Assembly: GCF_000008545.1 (NCBI RefSeq)
Contig: NC_000853.1
Location: forward strand, 1,192,465-1,256,464
Direction: 5' to 3'
DNA from: Thermotoga maritima MSB8
GTDB lineage: Bacteria > Thermotogota > Thermotogae > Thermotogales > Thermotogaceae
Length of the DNA: 64,000 nt
How positions within the stretch are numbered: the first letter of the stretch is position 1; each line of letters opens with the position of its first letter. The notes below the pieces were generated by a model. It had not been told where the DNA came from. It was given only the letters and a program-made list of their open reading frames with translations, and searched no databases. The position numbers and the translations under genes were made by a program. Positions 36,656 to 49,727 of the stretch are shown here, piece by piece.

Positions 36656-37831
36656 TTACTGAATCTGAGCTTTGATTCTTTCAACGGCGTTTTTGAGCGC
36701 TTCTTCGACCGTTGCTTTTCCGTTCACAACGAGATTGAGCGCATCGTTCATAGCGGCCCAGACAGCGGCCATCTGTGGAACGTTGGGCATTGGAATACCG
36801 TTGGCTGCGCTCAGTGTGAAGCCAACTACGTCTGGGTTATCTTTCACAAGTTCGAGCACGTCCTTTCTGGAGGGAAGTCTTGGATCTCCAAGGTAGATTC
36901 TGTACATCGTTTCCTTTTTTGCAATGAAACTGGTCAGGAATTCGATGGCAAGGAGTTTGTTTGGGGATTTTGCGTTCACCATGAAGCCCTGGACCCCAAC
37001 GAAAGGTCTTGCAGGAACGCCAGGTTCCAGATCGGGGATTGGGGCTACACCATAGTCTATTCCTGCATCCTTGTACGCCTTAATGGCCCACGGTCCGTTG
37101 ATGATCATCGCCGCCTGGCCTTCCCTGAACATGGAATCCATGATCTGATAATTGTCACTGGGATCCAGTATTCCCTCATCAACCAATCTTTTGAGGAGTT
37201 TCACACCCTTGATGGCTCCTTCGTTGGCCAGTCCGATATCGTTGACGTCCAGTCCTTTTTCTGTCTGTTTGAATACGTATCCACCGTATCCGAAAATGAA
37301 AGGAGCAATGTAGTAAAACTCGGCCGCTGAGGTGATGAAACCTCTCACTTCTCCTCCAAATTCTTCATCGATCTGTTTTGCTATTTCTATAAGCTCGTCC
37401 ATGGTCTTTGGGGGTTCAGGAACATAGTCCTTGTTGTAGATGAGTGCGATCGCTTCCATGGCGTAAGGAATACCGTAGAGTTTTCCACCGTAAGAGAACG
37501 CGTTGAGAGCGGTTTCATAGAAGTTTTTCAGGTCACTGAAGTTTGGAATGGGTTCGATCAAACCGTTGACTGCGAGTTCGCCTACCCAGTCGTGTGCTCC
37601 AACGATGATATCTGCACCCTGTCCCTCAGGAGCTGCTGTTAGGAACTTAGACTTGATGTCTTGGAAGTTCACGTACTGCACTTCAACCTCTACGCCGTAC
37701 TTCGCCTTGAACTCCTCTCCGAGTTTCTGAAGGATGTCAACCTGCTTCTCAGAGCACCAGATGGTGAGTTTCGGTTGGGCGAGGACAACTAGAGAAACGA
37801 CAAGCAAAGCGATCACCAGAAATTTTTTCAT
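36656..37831 (-). CDS. malE: Sugar ABC transporter substrate-binding protein (MalE-like)
   Basis: 391 residues from the ATG at 37831 (AAGGAGGTGAAGGTGGT upstream). An upstream in-frame extension would translate the operator repeats and is rejected. Signal peptide MKKFLVIALLVVSLVVLA, cleaved near AQP. The mature protein is SBP family 1: LTIWCSEKQVDILQKLGEEF, a Cys-containing first strand typical of the MalE/extracellular family 1, with the hinge strand GVQGFMVNAKS. I recall that T. maritima has two or three MalE paralogues with different di- and trisaccharide specificities, so the ligand should not be assumed to be maltose. The operon context suggests galacto- or related oligosaccharides. Confidence 0.92.
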   Translation of the reverse strand: MKKFLVIALLVVSLVVLAQPKLTIWCSEKQVDILQKLGEEFKAKYGVEVEVQYVNFQDIKSKFLTAAPEGQGADIIVGAHDWVGELAVNGLIEPIPNFSDLKNFYETALNAFSYGGKLYGIPYAMEAIALIYNKDYVPEPPKTMDELIEIAKQIDEEFGGEVRGFITSAAEFYYIAPFIFGYGGYVFKQTEKGLDVNDIGLANEGAIKGVKLLKRLVDEGILDPSDNYQIMDSMFREGQAAMIINGPWAIKAYKDAGIDYGVAPIPDLEPGVPARPFVGVQGFMVNAKSPNKLLAIEFLTSFIAKKETMYRIYLGDPRLPSRKDVLELVKDNPDVVGFTLSAANGIPMPNVPQMAAVWAAMNDALNLVVNGKATVEEALKNAVERIKAQIQ

Positions 37832-37867
37832 ACCACCTTCACCTCCTTGCGGGTAGATATTACCATA

Positions 37868-37902
37868 CGTAAACGTTACCGTGAAAGTTACCGTGATGTC
37901 AA
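37868..37902 (-). promoter_or_regulatory. malE promoter with tandem LacI-type operators
   Basis: Two 14-mers, CGTAAACGTTACCG (37868-37881) and CGTGAAAGTTACCG (37880-37893), resemble the perfect palindrome at 29422-29435 (shared CGT.AA.GTT..CG). A 10-bp direct repeat GTTACCGTGA occurs twice at a 12-bp period (37875-37884, 37887-37896). TTGACA on the minus strand (37902-37897) is a consensus -35, with TAACGT 18 bp downstream as a weak -10. The repressor gene of this locus is the likely ligand. Confidence 0.65.
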
Positions 37903-37909
37903 GCGACAT

Positions 37910-38157
37910 CCCGAGGAGATTTTCAACGTTATTTCCAAATAATTTCCTGGAATCGACTTTTACGTCCAGAAAACGAATATTTCTGTGTTTCGTTTACATA
38001 ATCTGGACTCTTTTGGTCTAAATTTCCCTCTTCGTTCTCTTCGAAACTGTTTTTTATCTCTACTAATTAGGTTGACATTATTGATTCAGAAGAGTAAAAT
38101 TACTCTTGTGTTGTGATTGTGAAAACTTTCTCTTTCAATCCCGAGGAGGTGTGATGA
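37910..38157. other. Divergent intergenic region, malE / mbx operon
   Basis: About 250 bp beyond the malE operator with no open frame of note. The left two thirds are AT-rich with pyrimidine runs (TTTTTTATCTCTACTAATTAG). The mbx promoter lies at its right end (listed separately), followed by a 5' leader of about 50 nt. No stable hairpin is evident in the leader. Confidence 0.6.
38072..38100 (+). promoter_or_regulatory. Promoter of the Mbx-type operon
   Basis: TTGACA at 38072-38077 and TAAAAT at 38095-38100, spacer exactly 17 bp; start predicted near 38107. A short dyad AGAGTAAAATTACTCT overlaps the -10 (GAGTAA...TTACTC) and might be a regulator site. Confidence 0.8.
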
Positions 38158-38625
38158 GTGAGCGTTTTTCTGACGAGTTTGATATTGTGGCTCGTGATCA
38201 CCAGGTTTTCCTACTCGGAACTACTCGCAGGAATCGTGGTTTCTCTAGCCGTGTCTTTGATTTTTCGAAAGTACCACGGTATCAGATTCGATGCGAAACT
38301 ACCACTGAGGATCGTCCGGTACGCGGTGATGTTCCTTCCCATCTTTATCATAGAGATGGTGAAAGCCAACATCGATGTTGCATTGAGGGTCTTGAATCCA
38401 CGCCTTCCGCTCAAACCGGGCTTCGTTGAATTAAAAACGAATCTGAAAAAAGATGCTTCCCGCCTCTTTCTTGCCAACAGCATAACCCTCACCCCTGGAA
38501 CGCTCAGTGTAGATGTGAAAGACGACAGGATTTTCGTCCACTGGATCGAAGTGAAATCCACCGAAGAGAAAGAAAGATACATTTCCGGAAAATTCGAAAG
38601 ACTCATCAAGGGGGTGTTCGAATGA
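38158..38625 (+). CDS. mbxA: Mrp antiporter subunit MnhE-like (MbxA)
   Basis: 155 residues from a GTG at 38158, with GAGGAGGTG 8 nt upstream; the ATG 4 bp earlier is in another frame. Two or three N-terminal membrane helices (LILWLVITRFSYSELLAGIV) then a soluble part containing LRVLNPRLPLKPGFVELKTN and the strand NSITLTPGTLSVDV, the most conserved MnhE motif. First subunit of the cation/proton antiporter module. Overlaps the next gene by 4 bp. Confidence 0.9.
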   Translation: MSVFLTSLILWLVITRFSYSELLAGIVVSLAVSLIFRKYHGIRFDAKLPLRIVRYAVMFLPIFIIEMVKANIDVALRVLNPRLPLKPGFVELKTNLKKDASRLFLANSITLTPGTLSVDVKDDRIFVHWIEVKSTEEKERYISGKFERLIKGVFE

Positions 38626-38870
38626 GTTTGCTGTTCTTCGTTCTCGTTGGAGCCGGTGTTCTGCTTTCATTCATCAGGGTAATAATAGGTCCCACCTCCT
38701 CTGACAGAGTAGCGGCTCTCGATACGATGAACGTTATGCTGACAGGACTCATAGTCTTCCTCGCCTACGTCTTCGACAGAGCAATTTATCTGGATATCGC
38801 CCTTGTTTACGCCCTTCTTTCTTTTCTGGAGACGATCATCGTATCCCGCTATCTGGAGGGGAGAAAATGA
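38622..38870 (+). CDS. mbxB: Mrp antiporter subunit MnhF-like (MbxB)
   Basis: 82 residues, three membrane helices, with the MnhF signature GPTSSDRVAALDTMNVMLTG between helices one and two. Small accessory subunit of the Mrp-type antiporter module; 4-bp overlaps on both sides keep it stoichiometric with its neighbours. Confidence 0.9.
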   Translation: MSLLFFVLVGAGVLLSFIRVIIGPTSSDRVAALDTMNVMLTGLIVFLAYVFDRAIYLDIALVYALLSFLETIIVSRYLEGRK

Positions 38871-39190
38871 ACGAGGTTATCGGAGAGGTGCTGATAGCGA
38901 TAGGAGCGTTTTTCTACTTTCTCGGAGGTCTCGGTGTTTTCAGAATGCCGGACGTTTACAACAGACTCCAGGCGGGTACCAAGGCCACGACTCTTGGAAC
39001 CTTCTCAACCGTGTTGGGAATCGGCATCGCAAAACCGGAATTTCTTTTGAAAGCCATCGTTATCATCGCGTTCATCGCTCTTACAAATCCTGTTGGAAGT
39101 TCTGTGCTGGCTCGAGCTTCTTACCTTTCTGGTGTGAAACCGTGTGAGTGCACGGTCATCGACGAATACAAAGGTGGTGATGAAGGATGA
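38867..39190 (+). CDS. mbxC: Mrp antiporter subunit MnhG-like (MbxC)
   Basis: 107 residues, three helices with the MnhG motif FRMPDVYNRLQAGTKATTLG after the first. The C-terminus (PCECTVIDEYKGGDEG) carries two cysteines, unusual for the family. Overlaps both neighbours by 4 bp. Confidence 0.9.
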   Translation: MNEVIGEVLIAIGAFFYFLGGLGVFRMPDVYNRLQAGTKATTLGTFSTVLGIGIAKPEFLLKAIVIIAFIALTNPVGSSVLARASYLSGVKPCECTVIDEYKGGDEG

Positions 39191-39429
39191 ATCTGCTGAT
39201 ATGGCTGACTGGAGGTATGATGCTGATCGCCGCTTTCTTTGCAGTTGAAGCGAGAAAAATTCTGGACAGCGTCATAGCCTTCTCATCGCTCAGTCTCCTT
39301 TCGGTGTTTCTTTTCATCATCATGAAAGCTCCCGATGTTGCCATAACGGAAGCATCGGTTGGCGCGGGTCTCACAACGGCTGTTCTTCTCATCACACTCT
39401 TCAAAATGGGAAAGGATGATGAAAGATGA
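39187..39429 (+). CDS. mbxD: MbhD/DUF4040-type membrane subunit (MbxD)
   Basis: 80 residues with three hydrophobic helices. KAPDVAITEASVGAGLTTAV is the conserved motif of the MbhD/DUF4040 family, which corresponds to part of MrpA in stand-alone antiporters and contains a glutamate in the proton path. 4-bp overlaps on both sides. Confidence 0.88.
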   Translation: MNLLIWLTGGMMLIAAFFAVEARKILDSVIAFSSLSLLSVFLFIIMKAPDVAITEASVGAGLTTAVLLITLFKMGKDDER

Positions 39430-40190
39430 GAAGATTCTTCGCCATTCTTATATCGGCCGCGTTCGTCTACGTGATGCTTTCGTTCATCACCACTTTGGAA
39501 CCATTTGGAAAGATCGATCTCTCCAGAAGAGTCTCCGTTCATTACCTGGCGAAGGATGTAAACACCGTTGATTCCAGAAAATGGATCGAGGGAAACTTGC
39601 AAGTACCTTCTGAAAGAAGAATATACGGCGAATCGAATTTAGAAGACGGAAGTGCCAACGTGGTGACATCAATTGTCGTCAACTACAGATCTTTCGACAC
39701 TCTGGGAGAAGTGACTGTGCTTCTTGCCGCTGCCATCGGTGTGGGAACGATCCTTCGAGGAAGCAGGAGGATGAAATACAGAAGAGAGCCGAATTTCATT
39801 CTCAAGGTGAGCACAGGAATCCTTCTGCCTTTGATCCTGATGTTCGGTGTTTACATATTCGTTCACGGCCACCTCTCACCCGGTGGTGGATTTCCCGGAG
39901 GTACCGTCATAGCCGCAGCGATTCTGCTTTTATATCTCTCGAACGAAGAATTCACATTGAACGAAGGAAGAGCAAAGCTTCTCGAAGGATCGATGGGTGC
40001 TCTCTACGTTCTTGTGGGATTGATCGGTCTGCTCACCGGCGGTGCTTTCCTTTACAACTTTCTGTCTACGGGAAGAGTAGGAGATCTCTTCAGTGCCGGT
40101 GTGGTTCCCGTTGTTTACATCATCATCGGTCTCAAAGTCGGATCGGAACTCTCCGGAGTTATATCAGAGATACACCGGAAGGGAGAGTGA
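39426..40190 (+). CDS. mbxF: Fused MbhE-MnhB membrane subunit (MbxF-like)
   Basis: 254 residues in two parts. Residues 1-110 match MbhE (membrane helix, a soluble loop, then VVNYRSFDTLGEVTVLLAAA, the diagnostic segment). Residues 120-254 match MnhB (KVSTGILLPLILMFGVYIFV, then HGHLSPGGGFPGGTVIAAA, the MnhB signature). In Mbh-type hydrogenases these are often separate proteins; the fusion agrees with Mbx-type clusters. Six or seven helices in total. Confidence 0.87.
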   Translation: MRRFFAILISAAFVYVMLSFITTLEPFGKIDLSRRVSVHYLAKDVNTVDSRKWIEGNLQVPSERRIYGESNLEDGSANVVTSIVVNYRSFDTLGEVTVLLAAAIGVGTILRGSRRMKYRREPNFILKVSTGILLPLILMFGVYIFVHGHLSPGGGFPGGTVIAAAILLLYLSNEEFTLNEGRAKLLEGSMGALYVLVGLIGLLTGGAFLYNFLSTGRVGDLFSAGVVPVVYIIIGLKVGSELSGVISEIHRKGE

Positions 40191-40196
40191 TTCGAG

Positions 40197-40535
40197 ATGA
40201 TCTATGTGATATCCATTCTCCTCGCAGGAATAGGAATTTACGGCTTGCTCACGCAGAAAAATCTCTTCAAGCATCTCGTCTCACTCACAATCATCGATAC
40301 GGCTGTTAACCTGTTCATAATAGCGCTTGGTTACAGAGAAGGAGACGCACCCATATACACAGACAGAGTCATGAACTTCTCGCTGAACTTCGTTGACCCT
40401 CTACCACAGGCTCTCGTTCTCACAGCGATCGTCATAGGTGTTGGTGTGCTGGCACTCGGAGCTTCTCTTCTCGTTCGGATCAAAGAAAAACACTCCTCAC
40501 TTGATCTCGAAGAGATGAAGGGAGTGAAAGAATGA
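40197..40535 (+). CDS. mbxG: MnhC/NuoK-like subunit (MbxG)
   Basis: 112 residues, three helices, homologous to MnhC and NuoK. The conserved segment PLPQALVLTAIVIGVGVLAL is in the last helix. Separated from the preceding gene by 6 bp and overlapping the next by 4 bp. Confidence 0.88.
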   Translation: MIYVISILLAGIGIYGLLTQKNLFKHLVSLTIIDTAVNLFIIALGYREGDAPIYTDRVMNFSLNFVDPLPQALVLTAIVIGVGVLALGASLLVRIKEKHSSLDLEEMKGVKE

Positions 40536-41932
40536 TCAGCCTGCTCGTGGCTGTGCCACTCCTCGCGGCTTTCGTTTCGCTTTTCTGGAAAAAGGCGTCA
40601 GATGTTCTGTTCTCGCTGGTGGCTCTGTTCAACGTGATCGTAGTTCTCAGCAAGTGGTTTCCGGGCGTCGTGGAGATTCATGCCATGGGAAACTGGAAAC
40701 CGCCGTTTGGTATAAACCTCGTTCTGGACGATGCCAGTTTTTACGCTGCTTTGATCGTGAATCTCATCTTTTTAATGGTTTCGTTTCTTCCGGTGGAGAC
40801 AAAGAAAGGATACGAAACCTCTCTCATGCTCCTTCTGGGGGCCACGAACGGATTCGTTCTGACGGGAGATCTCTTCAACTCGTTCGTCTTCATGGAAATA
40901 ATCACGATAACGGCGGTCACGACAGCCGCGAAGAGAGAAAATTTCTACAACGCTTACAAATACCTGATACTCGGTGGCATTGCTGGATCGTTCTATCTTC
41001 TGGCAACAATCTTCGCCTACGGCGCAACGGGAAGTTTGAATATGGCGCACATCGCAATGGTTGGACTTTCTGGAAGCTCTCTACTTGCGGTGACCATGCT
41101 TTACACGATCGGTCTTGGAGTTGAGGCGAAACTGTTCCCGTTGAACGGATGGGTCCCCGGAGTTTATGGTGGAAACGAGGTCTCTCCGATCGTTCTCGGA
41201 ACGGCCGTTTCGTTCGCTGCTCTTTATATGCTCGGAAGACTCTTTGGAACGGTATTCCATGGCAGTGGATTGAACACTCTGTACGTTCTCTCCCTCGTTA
41301 CGATCCTGACCGGTGAAATGGCGGCTCTCAGAGAGTCCAGACTGTTGAGAACTTTCGCTTATTCGAGTGTTGCACAAGCCGGAGTTGTGGCTGCGATGAT
41401 ATCTAAGGGAACGGAAAATGCCTTGAATCTTGCGTATTTTCATCTCACGAACGATGTTATAGCGAAGTTCGTGATCTTTCTCGTGGCAGGTTTTCTGGTT
41501 TACAGTTACAGAGATCTGAATGGAGTTTTCAGAAAACACAAATTGCTTGGAATTTCTTTCAGCATGGCCACGTTTTCTCTGGTAGGGTTTCCAATGTTCG
41601 CAGGCTTTCAGAGCAAGATCAGGATGATCATGGAAGCTTTCTCAACGAAAGATTTCCTGTTTCCGGCTGTGCTTCTCATAGCTACAGCCATTGAGGTTGG
41701 ATACGTGATCAGATGGAACGTGAGACTCTGGTTCGAAGAAGAAACCTTTGAGGAAAGATCGAAAGTACCTCTCACGATCGGGTTTTTCTCTTTTGCCCTC
41801 GCGATCCTTCTCGTTGTCGTCTTTCTGCAGCCCGATGTGTTTCTTGAAGGAACACAAAAGATGGCAAAAGCCCTTCTGGACACAGAAAGTTATGTGAACG
41901 GTGTCTTTTCTGCGGTGAAGGGAGGGATGTGA
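40532..41932 (+). CDS. mbxH: Antiporter-like subunit NuoM/N/MnhD type (MbxH)
   Basis: 466 residues with about 14 membrane helices. A glutamate in FNSFVFMEIITITAVT and lysine in GVEAKLFPLNGWVPGVYGG match the charged residues of the proton channel in NuoM/MnhD. First of two antiporter-like proteins in the operon. Ends 1 bp before the next start. Confidence 0.93.
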   Translation: MISLLVAVPLLAAFVSLFWKKASDVLFSLVALFNVIVVLSKWFPGVVEIHAMGNWKPPFGINLVLDDASFYAALIVNLIFLMVSFLPVETKKGYETSLMLLLGATNGFVLTGDLFNSFVFMEIITITAVTTAAKRENFYNAYKYLILGGIAGSFYLLATIFAYGATGSLNMAHIAMVGLSGSSLLAVTMLYTIGLGVEAKLFPLNGWVPGVYGGNEVSPIVLGTAVSFAALYMLGRLFGTVFHGSGLNTLYVLSLVTILTGEMAALRESRLLRTFAYSSVAQAGVVAAMISKGTENALNLAYFHLTNDVIAKFVIFLVAGFLVYSYRDLNGVFRKHKLLGISFSMATFSLVGFPMFAGFQSKIRMIMEAFSTKDFLFPAVLLIATAIEVGYVIRWNVRLWFEEETFEERSKVPLTIGFFSFALAILLVVVFLQPDVFLEGTQKMAKALLDTESYVNGVFSAVKGGM

Positions 41933-41933
41933 C

Positions 41934-43814
41934 GTGGCACTGGGTCTTCTCCCATTAGTTCTCCTCACACTTTCCATTTTCATCTACCTCGTCTCGAAGA
42001 TGAGCTGGAAAATGGGAGCGCTTCTGAATTTTCTGGCAGGGCTCTTCACTATTCTGTACGTCTTCACATTGAAGGTGGGCACTTTTGAGAAGCTGGACCT
42101 GTTCGGTTTAAATATCCAGTTTGAATGGACAAACGTATCTTTCTATTTCTCTTTTGTCAGTCTTCTGGTGATTGTGTCCGTGATGCTCTTTTCCACGAAG
42201 TGGCTTGAGACTCAAAAGTATCGAGCAAGCTACAATATGTTCCTGCTCATGGTAACGGCGGGATCACTCGGTGTCTTCATGGCTGCTGATCTCATCACGC
42301 TCTACGTTTTCTGGGAGATAGCAGTTCTCTCTTCGCTACTGATCGTTCCCATGGAAAAGAAAGAGGCACGAAAAGCAGTTGTTGTATACGCGGTCATGAG
42401 TGCTGTGGGAACGTACGCTTTCCTCTACGGAACGTTTCTCGCGTATCAGAGATATGGAACGTTGAACATACACGGCATAGCACAGGGTATGCTCAACGAC
42501 ACTTCGATAGGGTTCAAAATGGCTGTGTTTTTGCTCTTGAGCGCGGCCGGTATAGCAAAAAGTGGAATATTTCCATTACACATCTGGCTTAGAGAGACTC
42601 ATGGTCTTGCACCAAATGCGTTTTCTTCAGTACTTTCCGGACAGTTCATCAAACTCGGAAACTACATCTTTTTACTCGTTCTCTCCGTTATACCTTCCTT
42701 GAAAGTCTTCTCAGAAGTCACCGTTTATTCGGGAATCCCTCTTCCAAATTACATCCTCATCGCTCTTGGAAACGTGTCGATCGTGATAGGAACACTCATG
42801 GCAATAAAGCAGGACGATATGAAGATGCTCATGGCTTATTCCTCGGTTGCGAACGGAGGTTACATCCTGATAGGAATCGGCACCATGGATCCACTGGGCT
42901 TCGAAGGAGGAATGTTCCACATCTTCAACCACGCAGTCGCTTCTGCGGTTATATTCATGGCTTTCGCTGCGGTCATTTACAGAACGAAAACACAGAAGAT
43001 CAGCGAAATGGGTGGTCTGATCCACAAAATGCCCGTTACTTTCCTGGTTTATCTCTTCTCCATCATCTCTCTTGCCGGAATTCCTCCGATGAGTGGCTTC
43101 ATCTCGAAGTGGATGATCTACCAGGCACTGGTCAGAAAGGGTATGTTCATAACCGCTTTCTTGGCATTCTTTGGATCGATAGGATCTTTCCTATACGTCT
43201 TCAGGCCACTTGCAGGGGTGTTCCTGGGACAGCTTCCCAGAAAGTACAGGGACGTGAAAGAAGCCCCCGCTGTGATGCTGACACCCATGGTTCTTCTTGT
43301 TCTCATCAGTTTCTTTCTGGGTGTATGGCCTTTCCCCATTCTCCAGGCGATCGAAAAAATCAGGGTGGATCTGGATGTCGCACCTTCATTCAAAATATCT
43401 GATCCGGAGAACTGGCTTGTGAAGGGATTCGCGGGAAGCTGGAATCCCGTGCTCGTCTTCGGTCTATTTCTTGTGGGCTTCATCGTTGCTTACATCCTTT
43501 ACTCTCTCTTTCCAAGGCCAAAGAAAGTGGACCTTCTGGCACCTCACAGGGAGGAGGGAACGCCCATCAACATCTACACGGGCGGAGAGTTCATATACAA
43601 TCCAGATCTCTACCACTACAACACGAAATTCTACGCGGGTTTTGAAAGAATGTACGAAAAACATCCATCGTGGGAGAAACTCCTCAAAATGTTCGGGAAG
43701 CTGTTCCACGACGCTGGAGAATGGATACACAGCTGGTTCTTCGAACCTTCCTCCTCGGCTTACACTTTCTGGGTTGTTGTGACTCTACTTCTCGTATTCT
43801 GGGTGAGGTGGTGA
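41934..43814 (+). CDS. Second antiporter-like subunit (MbxH', NuoL/MnhA-like)
   Basis: 626 residues from a GTG at 41934. About 14 helices share the NuoL/M core (TLYVFWEIAVLSSLLIV, SGIFPLHIWLRETHGLAPNA, HIFNHAVASAVIF). A C-terminal extension of about 120 residues follows with a hydrophilic stretch and a last helix (AYTFWVVVTLLLVFW). Two antiporter-like subunits in tandem are typical of Mbx, whereas Mbh hydrogenases have one. This supports the Mbx assignment. Confidence 0.92.
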   Translation: MALGLLPLVLLTLSIFIYLVSKMSWKMGALLNFLAGLFTILYVFTLKVGTFEKLDLFGLNIQFEWTNVSFYFSFVSLLVIVSVMLFSTKWLETQKYRASYNMFLLMVTAGSLGVFMAADLITLYVFWEIAVLSSLLIVPMEKKEARKAVVVYAVMSAVGTYAFLYGTFLAYQRYGTLNIHGIAQGMLNDTSIGFKMAVFLLLSAAGIAKSGIFPLHIWLRETHGLAPNAFSSVLSGQFIKLGNYIFLLVLSVIPSLKVFSEVTVYSGIPLPNYILIALGNVSIVIGTLMAIKQDDMKMLMAYSSVANGGYILIGIGTMDPLGFEGGMFHIFNHAVASAVIFMAFAAVIYRTKTQKISEMGGLIHKMPVTFLVYLFSIISLAGIPPMSGFISKWMIYQALVRKGMFITAFLAFFGSIGSFLYVFRPLAGVFLGQLPRKYRDVKEAPAVMLTPMVLLVLISFFLGVWPFPILQAIEKIRVDLDVAPSFKISDPENWLVKGFAGSWNPVLVFGLFLVGFIVAYILYSLFPRPKKVDLLAPHREEGTPINIYTGGEFIYNPDLYHYNTKFYAGFERMYEKHPSWEKLLKMFGKLFHDAGEWIHSWFFEPSSSAYTFWVVVTLLLVFWVRW

Positions 43815-43818
43815 GAGG

Positions 43819-44700
43819 ATGATAAAAGCACTGTTCAACCTCGTTCTTGCCTTCTTTCTCGTTCTATCTCTTGAGGGAATCGCAAGGAAAATAGTCGCGA
43901 GGGTCCAGAGGAGAATAGGACCTCCCTGGTACCAGAACTTCATAGATGTCTTCAAGGCGCTGTCGAAACATCCCTTCAGCAACGGTTGGGTCTTCGATTT
44001 TGGAGTCCTGATGGCACTCGGAGGATCCGTCGCAACGGCCATGCTCATGCCTCTCGGCTCCTTGAAATGGACTCCGTTCCCAAACACAGATAACTTCTTC
44101 GTGATCACGTACCTGTTCACCGTTGGTGCCCTCGGCATGGCGATGGGAATGGTGGGAAGCGGAAACCCCTGGGCTTCCATAGGTATAAGCAGGGCGCTCA
44201 CACAGATGCTCGGCTACGAACTACCGTTCCTGGTTGTTATGGCATCCGTCATATTCAACTATAAAACCGCGTCGATACACCAGTTGATAACCTTTCAAGG
44301 AGAGAAATGGAACCTGTTCAGTATGCCTCTTGGTGCAATTGTGGCGTTCATCTCACTCATCGGAATGATGGGAAAGAAACCCTTCGACATCGCTATCGCT
44401 CCCGCTGAAATAGCCTCCGGTCCCATGGTGGAACTGTCTGGAAAGTATCTCGGTCTTCTTCAGATCATGCATGACTTCTCACTGTTCGTGGAAATCTCCC
44501 TCTTTGTGAACGTGTTTCTCGGTGGTGGGAGCCTCGGCTGGTTCCTCGTGAAATTCGTGACCGTCTGGGTCGTAGCAGTTCTCATCTCTTCTGTTCTTCC
44601 GAGGTTCAGAATAGAACAGATGCTGAAGTTCTACTGGGGTGTTCCTCTTGGACTTGCCTTTTTGAACGCGCTCTTTGTGGTGCTCGGTTTGACACTCTGA
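43819..44700 (+). CDS. mbxM: NuoH/MbhM-like membrane subunit (MbxM)
   Basis: 293 residues, eight helices, homologous to NuoH, the subunit linking the hydrophilic arm to the membrane arm. Conserved loops are visible: GIARKIVARVQRRIGPPWYQ, the acidic loop KKPFDIAIAPAEIASGPMVE and a last helix ending GLTL. RBS GAGAGG 5 bp before the ATG. Confidence 0.93.
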   Translation: MIKALFNLVLAFFLVLSLEGIARKIVARVQRRIGPPWYQNFIDVFKALSKHPFSNGWVFDFGVLMALGGSVATAMLMPLGSLKWTPFPNTDNFFVITYLFTVGALGMAMGMVGSGNPWASIGISRALTQMLGYELPFLVVMASVIFNYKTASIHQLITFQGEKWNLFSMPLGAIVAFISLIGMMGKKPFDIAIAPAEIASGPMVELSGKYLGLLQIMHDFSLFVEISLFVNVFLGGGSLGWFLVKFVTVWVVAVLISSVLPRFRIEQMLKFYWGVPLGLAFLNALFVVLGLTL

Positions 44701-44712
44701 GGAGGTGATCCG

Positions 44713-45249
44713 ATGAAAGAAAGAAGCATCTGGGAAAGAATAGCAGACAATCTAAGATCGCGTTCCATATGGATGCTCCATTACTGTACCGGATGTGGTG
44801 CCGTCGAGCTACCACCTTCCATGACCTCGAGATTCGACATGGAAAGGTTCGGCATAGCTCCCATGGCAACGCCGAGGCAGGCCGATATCCTTCTCATCAC
44901 AGGATACCTGAACACGAAGACCCTCAGGAGAGTGATATACACGTACGAACAGATGCCCGATCCAAAGTACGTCGTGGGCTTTGGAAGCTGCACCATAAAC
45001 GGTGGTATATACTTCGACTCCTACGCAACGGTGAACAGGCTCGATTACTACATACCCGTCGATGTGTATATAGCCGGCTGCATGCCAAGGCCAGAAGCAA
45101 TTCTTGAGGCCTTCAACTACCTGATGGAAAAGATCAGAAAAGGTGAAGCGGACGGCTGGAAAAGGTACAGGGAGAACTACGAGTGGTACAAACAGAATCA
45201 GATCCGCTCCCTCGGGGAGGTGTATGTGCATGACGAATTCCATGAGTGA
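44713..45249 (+). CDS. mbxJ: NuoB/MbhJ-like small subunit with proximal [4Fe-4S] cluster (MbxJ)
   Basis: 178 residues. The four cluster ligands are C25 and C28 (HYCTGCGAVE), C93 (GFGSCTINGG) and C123 (IAGCMPRPEA), matching the proximal/N2 cluster of NiFe hydrogenases and complex I. It carries the last Fe-S relay before the active-site region of the large subunit. RBS GAGGAGGTG; its 3' end overlaps the next gene by 20 bp. Confidence 0.95.
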   Translation: MKERSIWERIADNLRSRSIWMLHYCTGCGAVELPPSMTSRFDMERFGIAPMATPRQADILLITGYLNTKTLRRVIYTYEQMPDPKYVVGFGSCTINGGIYFDSYATVNRLDYYIPVDVYIAGCMPRPEAILEAFNYLMEKIRKGEADGWKRYRENYEWYKQNQIRSLGEVYVHDEFHE

Positions 45250-45757
45250 TGCGTTGAAAACTCTGGAAGTTTTCCGGCCAGAGGTCGAAGAAATAGACGA
45301 AAGGGAAGTGAAGCTGTCCGTCGCACCGGATAGAGTTATTGCCGTGCTGGAAACGTTGAAATCTCTTGGATACTCTCACCTTTCGTTGATGACCTGCATA
45401 GACTGGATCGAGGACAGTCAGTTCGAGCTGGTGTACATCCTCTTCTCGTGGAAAGACGGCGGGAAATTCATCGTTACAACGAGGATAGACAGAAACAATC
45501 CGCAGTTTGTAACAGTGAAGGAAATATGGCCTGTTGCGAGGTTCTACGAGAGAGAAATCCACGAGTTCTTCGGCGTGAAGTTCTCTGGAAACGAGGATAT
45601 GAAGCCGCTTTTCTTAGAACTCTGGGACGACAAACCACCCCTCAGAAAGGACTTCGATCCTCTCGAGTACTCCAGAAGAAAATTCCCCGGAAGGGAGTAC
45701 CAGAAAGACGTGATAGACGAGGCGAAAAAGATATTCAGAGGTGAGATCAATGGGTGA
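45230..45757 (+). CDS. mbxK: NuoC/MbhK-like subunit (MbxK)
   Basis: 175 residues from the ATG at 45230 (GGGGAGG upstream; the in-frame ATG at 45224 is too close to it). NuoC 30-kDa family motif PVARFYEREIHEFFGVKFSG and C-terminal PLRKDFDPLEYSRRKFPGR are present. Structural partner of the large subunit, kept separate rather than fused. Overlaps its upstream neighbour by 20 bp and the large subunit by 8 bp. Confidence 0.92.
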   Translation: MTNSMSDALKTLEVFRPEVEEIDEREVKLSVAPDRVIAVLETLKSLGYSHLSLMTCIDWIEDSQFELVYILFSWKDGGKFIVTTRIDRNNPQFVTVKEIWPVARFYEREIHEFFGVKFSGNEDMKPLFLELWDDKPPLRKDFDPLEYSRRKFPGREYQKDVIDEAKKIFRGEING

Positions 45758-46856
45758 AACGAAACTCTTTTTCGGGCCGAATCACCCGGGAATGCACGGA
45801 AATTTCTCCGTTCACATGTACGTGGAGGGAGACATCGTAAAGAAGGCAAGACCTGTACCTGGTTTTCTTCACAGAGGATTTGAAAAACTCATGGAAAGGC
45901 GTTACTGGTATTCCAACATCTCACTCATACCGAGAATCTGTGTTCCCGAGCCGGACATCAACGAAATATGCTACGCTATGGCAATCGAGAAGATAGCAAA
46001 GGTCGAAGTTCCAGAAAGGGCCCAGTGGATACGGATGATCGTTCTGGAACTTGCAAGGATAGCGAATCACATCTGGACCGTTGGAGGAATAGGAGGTCCC
46101 CTCGGACTGTACACGGCGTCTCACTGGGGAGTGGCCGATAGGGACAGAATTCTCGATATATTCGAGGCACTGAGCGGTGCGAGAGTGTACCATATGTACA
46201 TCATTCCCGGCGGTGTGAGAAAGAACATGACACCAAAAATTGAAGAAATGATCTGGAAGACACTCGACTACATAGAGTCAAGACTGCCCGATTATGAAAA
46301 CCTGATCTTCAAAAACAGGATCGTCCATTCGAGGCTCAGGGGAAGACTCATTCTCACAAGAGAACAGGCTGTGGAGATGGGGGTCACCGGCGTTGGTTTG
46401 AGAGCCACTGGCGTGGAGTACGACATAAGGAAGGTGGATCCTTACCTGTTCTACGACAGGGTGGAGTTTGAGGTTCCAACGGCAACAGACGGAGACGCTT
46501 TCAGCAGGGTCTATCTGAAGTTCAAAGAGATACCTCAGAGTATAAAAATCATCAGACAGGCTCTGGAGAAGATGCCACAGGCTGACAGAGTTAACGTTCC
46601 TATCGGTCGTGGGAACGGTCTCAGAAGAATCGTTCCAAAGGGTATGGCTTACGCGCATGTGGAATCGACGAGAGGCGAATACGGATTCTTCGTCGTCTCC
46701 GATGGAAAAAACAAACCCTACAGAGTGGCGGTGAGGGGAGCTTCTTATCCTCAGGGACTCTACGGAATAGAAAAGTACCTTCCAGGAACGAGAATAGAAG
46801 ACGTCCCCATCTGGCTCGCTACGATGGACGTCTGCGCACCTGAAATAGACAGGTGA
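45750..46856 (+). CDS. mbxL: NuoD/MbhL-like large subunit lacking full NiFe ligand set (MbxL)
   Basis: 368 residues from the ATG at 45750 (GAGGTGAGATCA upstream). Fold hallmarks: GPNHPGMHG at the N-terminus, GFLHRGFEKLMERRYW, a central VGGIGGPLG and a C-terminal GLYGIEKYLPGTRIEDVPIW. In NiFe hydrogenases the metal is held by CxxC near each end. Here the N-terminal motif reads RICVPE (C64, E67) and the C-terminal motif reads DVCAPE (C362, E365). Only the first Cys of each pair remains, the second being Glu. A standard four-thiolate NiFe site is therefore not expected and H2 production by this complex is unlikely. This fits the Mbx/MBS group rather than Mbh. Confidence 0.93.
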   Translation: MGETKLFFGPNHPGMHGNFSVHMYVEGDIVKKARPVPGFLHRGFEKLMERRYWYSNISLIPRICVPEPDINEICYAMAIEKIAKVEVPERAQWIRMIVLELARIANHIWTVGGIGGPLGLYTASHWGVADRDRILDIFEALSGARVYHMYIIPGGVRKNMTPKIEEMIWKTLDYIESRLPDYENLIFKNRIVHSRLRGRLILTREQAVEMGVTGVGLRATGVEYDIRKVDPYLFYDRVEFEVPTATDGDAFSRVYLKFKEIPQSIKIIRQALEKMPQADRVNVPIGRGNGLRRIVPKGMAYAHVESTRGEYGFFVVSDGKNKPYRVAVRGASYPQGLYGIEKYLPGTRIEDVPIWLATMDVCAPEIDR

Positions 46857-46868
46857 GGGGTGAGAAAA

Positions 46869-48716
46869 ATGGCAGTCCAGAAGCTACCAGAAAAGGATTT
46901 CTTTGCTCCTCTGAAGGCATGGAAATTTCTTGTCAGAAAACCGGTTACAATAGAGGTTCCAAACAAAATCAGGAGAGAAGCTTCGGAAAGATACAGAGGA
47001 TTCCACGTGAACGACTGGGGAAAGTGCATAGGGTGCGGTACATGCGCAAAGATCTGCCCAACCGATGCCATAACCATGGTGGAGGTCCCGGATCTCACTC
47101 AAGAAGATGGAAAACTTCCGCAAAGACCCGTCATAGATTACGGCAGGTGTTCTTTCTGTGCGCTCTGCGTTGACATCTGCACAACGGGTTCACTCAAGAT
47201 GACGAGGGAATACATCCACATCTCGGAAGATCCGGAAGACTTCATCTTTATGCCAACGGATAAGGGATTGAACGCGAAAAAAGGTCTCTACGAATTTGGA
47301 AAGGCACCCCTCGGCTGGGTGAGGGATGAGAACTCTGAGCTGCTCGATCTCGAAAGAATAGAAATGCCCGTGGAACCACCGGAAGTCAGGATCAAATCTT
47401 TCATAGAAATCGTGAAAGGATACAGTAGAGAACAGGCCATGCAGGAGGCCGCCAGGTGTGTGGAGTGCGGTGTGTGTACCTACACCTGTCCCGAACACAT
47501 GGACATACCCCAGTACATAAAATCCGTGTACGAGGACAATCTGGAAGAAGGACTGAGATGGCTCTACAGAACGAATCCTCTCTCAATGGTCTGTGGAAGG
47601 GTCTGTACTCACAGGTGTGAAACCGCCTGTTCTGTGGGAGTCAGAGGAGAACCCGTTGCGATTCAGTGGTTGAAAAGGTACATAGTGGACAGCATTCCTC
47701 TCGAGAGATACGGAGAGATCCTGGACATAAAACCGGAGAGAAAAGGAAAGAGTGTGGGAATCATAGGATCGGGTCCCGCTGGGCTCGCCGCAGCCTACTT
47801 TCTTGCCACCATGGGATACGATGTTACCATATACGAATCGGAATCAAAACCTGGTGGTGTGATGAGGTACGGTATTCCAAAATACCGACTTCCCGATGAA
47901 GCGCTGGACAAGGATATCGCATTCATCGAGGCGCTCGGGGTGAAAATTCTACTCAACACGAGAGTCGTCCAGGATGTGTCTTTCGAAGATGTCAGAAAGA
48001 GACACGATGTTGTCTTTCTTGCAACAGGCTTCGGTCTTGGAAGGTCAACGGGTGTTCCGGGGACCGATCACCCAGATGTGAAACAGGCACTCCCCTTGCT
48101 CAAGATGATAAGGGACTACCTGAGGGGAGATGGTCCAAAGCCACCGGTCCCAGAGAGACTCGTTGTCATCGGTGGAGGAAACGTCGCGATGGATATCTCC
48201 AGGTCGATGGCAAGACTTCAGTTCATGGAGTACGGAAGGGTGAACGTTCAGGTGCTTTCACTTGAAGGATGCTTCGAGGACATGCCGGCTGATATGGAAG
48301 AAATAGAAGAGGCTCTCGAAGAGGGTATCGTCATAAATCCAGGATGGGGACCGATGGAAGTCGTGATAGAGAACGACAGGATAAAAGGTGTGAAATTCAA
48401 AAAATGTGTCAGTGTGTTCGACGGCGAAGGACGGTTCAATCCACAGTTTGACGAAAAAGAACAAATCTTTGTAGAAGCGGACATGGTCGTAGAAGCGATT
48501 GGACAGGCACCAGATTATTCCTACTTACCCGAAGAAATACGAAGCAAACTCGAATTTTTCAGAGGAAGAATCAAAACAAACGAGTACAATCAGACCTCTG
48601 TGGAATGGTTGTTTGCAGGAGGAGACATCGTTCACGGACCGGATATCATTCACGGTATTGCAGATGGATACGCCGCGGCAAAAGGGATAGACATGTACCT
48701 GAGAAAGGAAAAATGA
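46869..48716 (+). CDS. NuoI-like ferredoxin domain fused to GltD-like NAD(P)H flavoprotein
   Basis: 615 residues from the ATG at 46869 (GGTGAGGGGTGAGAAAA upstream). Residues 1-115 are NuoI/MbhN-like with two [4Fe-4S] motifs: C53/C56/C59/C63 and C94/C97/C100/C104. Residues 185-615 resemble glutamate synthase small subunit/NfnB: Cys motifs C197/C200/C203/C207 and C242/C246/C250/C254, FAD site GIIGSGPAG (297-305) followed by ESESKPGG, and NAD(P) site VVIGGGNVAMD, ending in GDIVHGPDIIHGIADGYAAA. It is not a glutamate synthase, as no large subunit gene is present. It probably provides an electron entry or exit to NAD(P)H or ferredoxin for the Mbx-type complex. Last gene of the operon. Confidence 0.93.
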   Translation: MAVQKLPEKDFFAPLKAWKFLVRKPVTIEVPNKIRREASERYRGFHVNDWGKCIGCGTCAKICPTDAITMVEVPDLTQEDGKLPQRPVIDYGRCSFCALCVDICTTGSLKMTREYIHISEDPEDFIFMPTDKGLNAKKGLYEFGKAPLGWVRDENSELLDLERIEMPVEPPEVRIKSFIEIVKGYSREQAMQEAARCVECGVCTYTCPEHMDIPQYIKSVYEDNLEEGLRWLYRTNPLSMVCGRVCTHRCETACSVGVRGEPVAIQWLKRYIVDSIPLERYGEILDIKPERKGKSVGIIGSGPAGLAAAYFLATMGYDVTIYESESKPGGVMRYGIPKYRLPDEALDKDIAFIEALGVKILLNTRVVQDVSFEDVRKRHDVVFLATGFGLGRSTGVPGTDHPDVKQALPLLKMIRDYLRGDGPKPPVPERLVVIGGGNVAMDISRSMARLQFMEYGRVNVQVLSLEGCFEDMPADMEEIEEALEEGIVINPGWGPMEVVIENDRIKGVKFKKCVSVFDGEGRFNPQFDEKEQIFVEADMVVEAIGQAPDYSYLPEEIRSKLEFFRGRIKTNEYNQTSVEWLFAGGDIVHGPDIIHGIADGYAAAKGIDMYLRKEK

Positions 48717-48742
48717 AAAAGCCCCTCTCCGGAGGGGCTTTT
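48717..48742. terminator. Bidirectional terminator, mbx operon / LacI gene
   Basis: Perfect stem AGCCCCTC-TCCG-GAGGGGCT flanked by AAAAA on the left and TTTTAT on the right, so it works on both strands. It lies between two convergent transcripts and overlaps the stop codon of the minus-strand regulator. Confidence 0.9.
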
Positions 48743-49727
48743 ATAACTGTTTAACGGATTCTCTCTCAACGATCTCAACGGGTAGAACGACTCTTCGTGC
48801 AACGCCTTTTTTTCCAGAAAGTCTCTCGTAAAGAATCTCAAAGGCCACTCTTCCCATCTCTTCCCTCGGTTGCCTCACCGTGGTGAGTGGAGGAATGGTG
48901 TAGCTTGATATTGGATCGTCGTCGAATCCCATGACAGAAACTTCATCGGGAACGAGTACACCGAGATCGTGTAGTGCCTTGAGCGCACCGAAGGCCGAAA
49001 GATCGTTTATTGCAAAGATCGCAGTGAAATCCCTGCCGTGTTTTTTCAGGTACCTTTCCACCGCGTGGTAGCCGTGTTCGGCAAAATAACCGCACGGTGT
49101 GACTTTCACGTCTATTCCGTGTCTTGTGCTGTAATCTATGAAACCTCTTTCTCTGTCGGAAAAAGAATAAATGTCTTTTCTACCCTTCAAAAGGAGAACC
49201 TTTCTGTGACCCTTTTCCAGAAGGTACTTCGCACACATCCTTCCAGCGGCGTAGTTGTCGATGCCAACGTTGTCGAGCCTGATCTCCGGTTCTTCCCTGT
49301 CCACCACAACAACTGGAATGGCACTCTTTATCAATCTTTCGAGTTGTTCCTCGTCCTTCTTCGACGAGCAGACTATGATACCATCCACTCTTTTCGCAAA
49401 GAAAACCTCCAGTCTTTCCAGCTCCACAGAGGTCCTGTGAAGTGTTGTTGAAATCATGAGGGTGAAGTCTCTCTTTATCGCTTCTTTTTCTATGCCCGTC
49501 AATATCTCGTTGTAGTGAAAGCCCCCAAAGTTGGGGACGAGAACTCCTATAGTTCTCTTTAAAACAGCCCCTTTCACAGCGTACACGGGGTGATAGTTGA
49601 GCTTTCTGATGGCATCGATTACCTTCTTTCTCGTCTCTTCCGAGACGTTGTTGTAGCCGTTTATCACACGTGAGACGGTTGCTATAGAAACACCTGCGAG
49701 TTTTGCCACATCTTTGATGGAGGCCAT
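48741..49727 (-). CDS. LacI-family repressor of the mannan locus
   Basis: 328 residues. [23 protein letters not shown] with hinge segment [11 protein letters not shown], then effector domain from [20 protein letters not shown]. It starts 1 bp after the ABC ATPase stop and is thus the last gene of the manno-oligosaccharide transporter operon. Its effector is unknown; a mannose- or glucose-type oligosaccharide is likely from context. No perfect LacI palindrome is seen at the operon's own promoter, so its target may lie elsewhere. Confidence 0.93.

Follow-up and report, generated by a model that had tools for sequence, protein, structure and literature searches.

What is the function of a GltD/NfnB-type flavoprotein that is fused to an electron-input subunit of a complex-I-like membrane enzyme? 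The question is raised by a gene located at 46869-48716, on the + strand of the window, that is, of the whole stretch of 64,000 nucleotides of Thermotoga maritima MSB8 DNA analysed here. The genome carrying this gene is a single contig of 1,860,725 bp. A preliminary description had proposed an ion-pumping ferredoxin:NAD(P)+ oxidoreductase, or a confurcating entry of electrons into a membrane complex, rather than sulfur reduction.

The fused chain and its cofactor sites

The gene encodes one uninterrupted chain of 615 residues, without internal stop. A Shine-Dalgarno-like sequence is found upstream of the ATG at 46869, and an alternative in-frame GTG at 46860 would add three residues. The label TM1217 is deduced from a synteny table (PMC2246101). 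A NuoI/MbsN-type domain with two [4Fe-4S] motifs comes first and is followed by a complete Fe-S/FAD/NAD(P) module of the GltD/NfnB type, with the following features:

46869-48716, + strand: fusion gene TM1217 (MbsN plus GltD-type flavoprotein), 615 residues, NCBIfam PRK13984
46869-47243, + strand: NuoI/MbsN-type domain, residues 1-125 (P. furiosus MbsN 6u8y_N, E 1.2e-27)
47025-47057, + strand: first NuoI-type cluster motif, C53-C63, invariant in 32 fusions
47148-47180, + strand: second NuoI-type cluster motif, C94-C104, invariant in 32 fusions
47349-48713, + strand: GltD/NfnB-type module, residues 161-615 (T. maritima NfnB 4ylf_B, E 2.6e-77; model Z about 45 to NfnL/NfnB)
47457-47489, + strand: GltD-type motif C197-C207, invariant in 32 fusions
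47592-47630, + strand: GltD-type motif C242-C254, invariant in 32 fusions
47673-47675, + strand: K269, aligned with the cluster ligand K170 of StnC; Glu in NfnB
47751-47783, + strand: FAD-binding GxGxxG region, residues 295-305
47886-47888, + strand: R340, aligned with the FAD-N5 arginine (R187 of T. maritima NfnB)
48171-48194, + strand: NAD(P)-binding GGGNVAMD, residues 435-442
48258-48266, + strand: S464-L465-E466, where NfnB, NfnABC and GltD have YRR; predicts NAD(H)

The eight NuoI-type cysteines (C53/56/59/63 and C94/97/100/104), the eight of GltD type (C197/200/203/207 and C242/246/250/254), the FAD glycines G300/G302 and the NAD(P) glycines G435-G437 are all invariant in the 32 aligned fusion sequences. 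Translation and alignment therefore confirm that the chain is a true fusion of 615 residues, with eight NuoI-type and eight further cysteines and complete FAD and NAD(P) sites, as first described. Pfam recognizes Fer4-type domains (49-107), Fer4_20 (174-275) and Pyr_redox_2 (295-595). The NCBIfam model NF010590/PRK13984, "putative oxidoreductase", in which this two-domain architecture is already catalogued, spans residues 1-615 with 1215 bits against a cut-off of 946. An AlphaFold model of the chain has a mean pLDDT of 84.5 and a pTM of 0.81. Its residues 157-613 superpose on P. furiosus NfnL (Z 45, 1.9 Å); a second fold comparison took residues 171-615, and the NuoI half was judged on sequence. 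The model does not define how the two halves sit relative to each other.

Translation of the halves as separate polypeptides was considered and rejected. The SD scores of the start-like codons in the linker are weak (-3 to -6 kcal/mol), and no credible internal start was found just before the flavin domain. One SD-like site precedes the GTG codon 198, inside a cysteine motif, and a start there would drop the first ligand. Both halves thus appear to form one polypeptide. A chance open reading frame was also rejected, as the frame is kept across most Thermotogota families, far beyond chance.

The operon and its probable sulfur-reducing site

The fusion gene is the last of 13 genes on the same strand, encoding counterparts of MbsA, B, C, D, E, G, H, H', M, J, K and L followed by the N-fusion, so that its assignment to a membrane complex in the preliminary description holds. 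Upstream of it and around the operon are found:

38072-38100, + strand: promoter-like site upstream of the operon, 11/12 (consensus match only, in a region no richer in such matches than shuffled sequence)
38158-38625, + strand: MbsA-like (MnhE-type) subunit
38622-38870, + strand: MbsB-like (MnhF-type) subunit, type by position and size
38867-39190, + strand: MbsC-like (MnhG-type) subunit, type by position and size
39187-39429, + strand: MbsD-like subunit (Pfam MbhD)
39426-40190, + strand: MbsE-like subunit (MbhE and MnhB in one chain)
40197-40535, + strand: MbsG-like (MnhC/NuoK-type) subunit
40532-41932, + strand: MbsH-like antiporter subunit, central-axis Lys lost (6u8y_H, E 1.4e-56)
41934-43814, + strand: MbsH'-like antiporter subunit, Glu/Lys/His axis intact (6u8y_X, E 1.2e-63)
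43819-44700, + strand: MbsM-like (NuoH-type) subunit
44713-45249, + strand: MbsJ-like (NuoB-type) subunit with C25, C28, C93 and C123 (6u8y_J, gap-free, E 6.8e-73)
45143-45757, + strand: MbsK-like (NuoC-type) subunit, start codon uncertain
45741-46856, + strand: MbsL-like (NuoD-type) subunit; C67 and C365 correspond to MbsL C85 and C385 (6u8y_L, E 1.1e-110)
48717-48742, no strand assigned: terminator-like hairpin of 11 pairs between the fusion gene and a convergent lacI-type gene (consensus match only)

The operon is flanked by the divergent gene of a sugar-binding protein from a maltose-type operon (36656-37909) and, beyond the terminator-like hairpin, by the convergent gene of a LacI-type regulator (48741-49727). 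For J, L, N, H and H' alike, the best PDB match is a chain of the archaeal MBS (6u8y). Gene order is constant in the other Thermotogota neighbourhoods read, contig-end cuts aside. NuoE, NuoF and NuoG are absent from the 13 genes, where the GltD-type module is found instead.

In the literature, the mbx operon, counted as twelve genes, was reported to be acquired from Thermococcales (PMC2246101), and MBX was described as a 13-subunit, predicted ferredoxin-driven sulfur reductase homologous to archaeal MBS (PMC9431562). In the available parts of these two sources, no mention of the flavin half was found. Beyond the synteny table, no description of TM1217 as a part of MBX was found in a search that left key subscription papers outside, and an earlier description is possible.

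MBS reduces polysulfide at the proximal cluster carried by three MbsJ cysteines, C28, C93 and C123, and C25 of MbsJ and C85/C385 of MbsL are dispensable in MBS mutants (PMC7684303). The MbsJ-like protein of the operon aligns without gaps to that of P. furiosus, and C28/C93/C123 are invariant in the 25 MbsJ sequences having the MBS loop length. In one locus (L043, genome G004), C25 is replaced by Ala and both MbsL cysteines are gone, with the three proximal-cluster ligands kept. As the mutant data would allow, this locus would be a natural parallel to the published MBS mutants. In addition, mbxA is induced 4.36-fold with S0, as measured by qRT-PCR (PMC9431562). These ligands and this induction argue against the idea that the complex serves a function other than sulfur reduction. 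Because the three-Cys catalytic site of MBS is conserved, a shift of function away from sulfur is unlikely. The sulfur phenotype is uninformative as a test, reduction of S0 or thiosulfate being recorded for nearly all Thermotogae. T. maritima also possesses a soluble NSR. A Thermotoga genome devoid of the operon (G092) is apparently that of T. petrophila, a species listed with S0 as electron acceptor; MBX would therefore not be needed for S0 reduction.

Of the two antiporter subunits in the membrane arm, MbsH' retains the Glu/Lys/His axis known from MBS. In MbsH the Glu is kept, the equivalent of K250 is lost (uncharged) in 24 of 24 Thermotogota loci and H330 is replaced in 19 of the 24, in a comparison that rests on one archaeal MbsH, that of P. 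furiosus. One of the two predicted proton paths may thus be impaired. This would suit a lower driving force, and a link with an NADH port is speculative.

The flavin module and the spread of the fusion

Does the flavin module bifurcate electrons? The corresponding module of StnC is reported to be non-bifurcating; K170 is a ligand of its proximal cluster, at a position occupied by Glu in NfnB (PMC10482914). Lys is found at this position (K269) in all 32 aligned fusions and in NfnA of NfnABC, and the NfnB sequences have Glu. Since E. coli GltD also has Glu, this residue is not by itself a mark of bifurcation. The N5-arginine (R340) is kept in the fusion and occurs alike in bifurcating NfnB and non-bifurcating StnC. 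The main-clade operons were found to lack an NfnA-like [2Fe-2S] subunit. None is encoded beside the T. maritima fusion gene, and separate nfnAB genes occur elsewhere in that genome. In five family f8 loci (L038, L039, L041, L042 and L066), the fusion gene is immediately followed by nfnA and nfnB in the same orientation. The Lys at the proximal cluster disfavours bifurcation or confurcation by the module.

A YRR motif closes the second strand of the NAD(P) site in NfnB, GltD and NfnABC. The main-clade fusions have (S/C/A)LE and the f8 fusions YRR. How acidic and YRR motifs are to be read is general knowledge on the Rossmann fold. We read these motifs as indicating NADH in T. maritima and most relatives and NADPH in family f8, a preference that hangs on one short motif. 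No literature naming the 2'-phosphate ligands for this nucleotide site was found.

The distribution was surveyed in 103 Thermotogota genomes, calling MBX-type NuoD at E below 1e-100. This subunit is present in 70 genomes; the fusion is found in 69 of them and in none of the 33 others. The 69 comprise 55 genomes over the model cut-off, four with partial sequences (most at contig ends), one of family f6 and nine of family f8. Among 14 control genomes, one is above the cut-off, presumably T. maritima. The question whether the fusion is confined to Thermotogales, raised at the outset, is answered in the negative by this survey inside the phylum, since the fusion is spread over most Thermotogota families.

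The sole exception, G017 of family f8, has an unfused MbsN of 164 residues (L065:14000-14800), then a flavin remnant, nfnA and nfnB. The remnant covers the flavin domain's final 84 residues, is 76% identical to L038, contains stops and directly follows the linker; the remaining operon is intact. As the remnant lies between MbsN and nfnA, the flavin half would have been deleted internally, although in this genome of many contigs, 87% complete, the deletion could be an assembly error. The operon-less genome G092 lacks the equivalent of window positions 38003-48508, with flanks kept at 95% DNA identity (L090) and the final 68 codons of the fusion gene left as a remnant. In T. petrophila, TM1217 adjoins TM1204 (PMC2246101). 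The gap with its intact flanks and the TM1217-TM1204 junction thus indicate loss of operon and fusion as a block.

In a flavin-domain tree, all fusions form one clade (support 95/99) with long branches. Constrained trees were rejected for an origin of the flavin half from Thermotogota NfnB, with the main clade grouped with NfnB (p-AU 0.0009), and for a grouping of the f8 fusions with NfnABC (p-AU 0.006), in an analysis with few references, long branches and groups named after the tree had been seen. The simplest reading would be a single fusion, followed later by a change of cofactor. An exact peptide-pattern search of genome contigs was near-empty outside the phylum, with patterns that also missed most Thermotogota. 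The plasmid matches examined were not the fusion but YgfT-, PreT- or NfnB-like proteins, or a longer FAD oxidoreductase. In a Ruminococcus-like genome, a chain of 735 residues (L064:8689-10893) joins a ferredoxin-like start to a GltD-type module having the Lys and YRR, and groups with NfnABC in the tree.

Electron entry into the complex and comparison with known systems

We favour, with a probability of about 0.55, a reading of the fusion as the electron-input subunit (MbsN) of an MBS-type, ion-pumping polysulfide/sulfane reductase, extended by a linear GltD-type dehydrogenase module. In this reading, NADH (NADPH in family f8) would give a hydride to FAD. From there electrons would move one at a time, first over the two [4Fe-4S] clusters of the GltD-type module and next over the two of the NuoI-type domain, and would reduce polysulfide at the three-Cys cluster of MbsJ. 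The energy released would drive H+ or Na+ translocation through the Mrp-like membrane arm. The NuoI-type domain would sit where free ferredoxin sits beside NfnB, and reduced ferredoxin might feed the same clusters as an alternative to the nucleotide. The direction of flow, the nucleotide, the acceptor and ion pumping are what we infer here; the fusion, the operon, the conservation of ligands and catalytic site and the split of cofactor motifs are seen in the sequence. For this reading we count the invariant cysteines and glycines, the MBS gene set, the three MbsJ ligands, kept in L043 too, K269, the SLE motif, the constant gene order, the co-occurrence, the block loss and the induction of mbxA. 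Against it we count the S0 reduction without MBX, the soluble NSR, the short nucleotide motif, the placement of the halves and the small driving force of NADH. Polysulfide is at about -260 mV. With NADH as sole donor the driving force would thus be small, the E' of NADH being about -280 mV (PMC10482914).

Considering the same cofactor sites, other modes of electron entry may be envisaged. In the preliminary description, ferredoxin would be oxidised at the NuoI-type clusters and NAD(P)+ reduced at FAD, in a reaction coupled to pumping. One chain does hold all the sites needed, and T. maritima must rebalance its ferredoxin and nicotinamide pools. However, a Na+-pumping Rnf already serves ferredoxin:NAD+ in this organism (PMC7414866). 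Moreover, electrons going from ferredoxin to NAD(P) through the chain could skip the MbsJ cluster, yet the MBS-type catalytic site is conserved. They would by-pass the proximal cluster, the presumed coupling site of complex-I-like enzymes. For these reasons FAD is preferred as an input rather than an output. The loss of the flavin half from the otherwise intact G017 operon is a further argument, and we regard this mode as quite improbable. Of what had been proposed, the nicotinamide link to the complex is supported by the sequence, and the opposition to sulfur reduction is not. The confurcating variant, in which a bifurcating FAD would take electrons from reduced ferredoxin and NAD(P)H at once and so drive the reduction of polysulfide, would agree with R340 and with the nfnA and nfnB genes following the fusion in f8. 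It is disfavoured by K269, found as in non-bifurcating StnC instead of the Glu of NfnB, by the occurrence of the N5-arginine in StnC too, and by the missing NfnA-like subunit in main-clade operons, which makes it somewhat more improbable still.

Two linear inputs are also conceivable. Ferredoxin, which P. furiosus MBS uses (PMC7684303), would be the main energy-coupling donor and the flavin module a two-way valve equilibrating NAD(P)H with the Fe-S chain. G017, which retains MBX minus the flavin half, would fit such an arrangement. Nevertheless, the flavin half is conserved in all but one of the 70 genomes and none of its cofactor residues varies among the 32 aligned sequences, so that it is probably more than a side valve, and we consider this possibility unlikely. 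As to the automatic annotation as a glutamate synthase beta subunit, it reflects the homology of the C-terminal half to GltD. The N-terminal NuoI domain, the location in the MBX operon, the full-length match to PRK13984, small-subunit models scoring far below their cut-offs and the lack of an adjacent large subunit leave it next to no probability. The only near-full-length PF01645 match lies about 0.82 Mb away. The preliminary description was right to doubt the annotation.

According to the favoured reading, the pump would probably be driven directly by NADH, or by NADPH in one family, an input that the known archaeal relative does not have. More tentatively, the complex would be a relative of complex I that became NADH-driven independently of NuoEFG, through fusion of a GltD-type module to its NuoI-type subunit, with one family using NADPH and the axis of one pump subunit lost in keeping with the lower energy that NADH provides. 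In the published model, T. maritima MBX is a ferredoxin-driven homologue of archaeal MBS (PMC9431562). A built-in NAD(P)H port, if true, would alter the calculated ATP yield of sulfur-linked growth and would be a second independent route by which a complex-I-like machine gained nicotinamide input. It is directly testable in the purified thermostable complex.

Like P. furiosus MBS (6u8y; PMC7684303), the Thermotoga operon has 13 genes with the same kind of subunit set and letters, an MbsJ proximal cluster with three Cys ligands and a loop of equal length, three residues shorter than in MBH, two of the four [NiFe] cysteines left in the NuoD-type subunit (C67, C365), the MbsH/H' duplication and a single-chain MbsE. 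Unlike in P. furiosus, where MbsN has 208 residues, MbsN carries a GltD-type flavoprotein, and the charged axis of MbsH, a property rather than a defining criterion, is not intact, whereas that of MbsH' is. The GltD-type module is placed in a larger complex, with Lys at the proximal-cluster position, as in StnC of Sporomusa ovata and in NfnA of NfnABC (8oh5, 9bov, 9n5u). In StnC it feeds a linear Fe-S chain, as proposed here, but there it is joined to a NuoG-type module and acts together with a NuoF-type flavin subunit that bifurcates, whereas the partner in the fusion is a NuoI-type domain in a membrane pump. Both NfnA sequences of NfnABC have YRR, unlike the T. maritima fusion. NfnB/NfnL (4ylf, 5jca), the best sequence and fold matches of the C-terminal half, differ by Glu instead of Lys, by YRR, by their pairing with NfnA and by bifurcation. 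AegA/YgfT of E. coli and Salmonella likewise have, in a single chain, a ferredoxin-type Fe-S domain and after it a GltD-type module, but they score far below the PRK13984 level, are not encoded in an operon for a membrane pump and carry Glu and YRR. NF010590/PRK13984 is the same family over its full length, under a name that assigns neither function nor complex. Finally, where complex I takes NADH through NuoEFG, the MBX operon has a GltD-type module instead.
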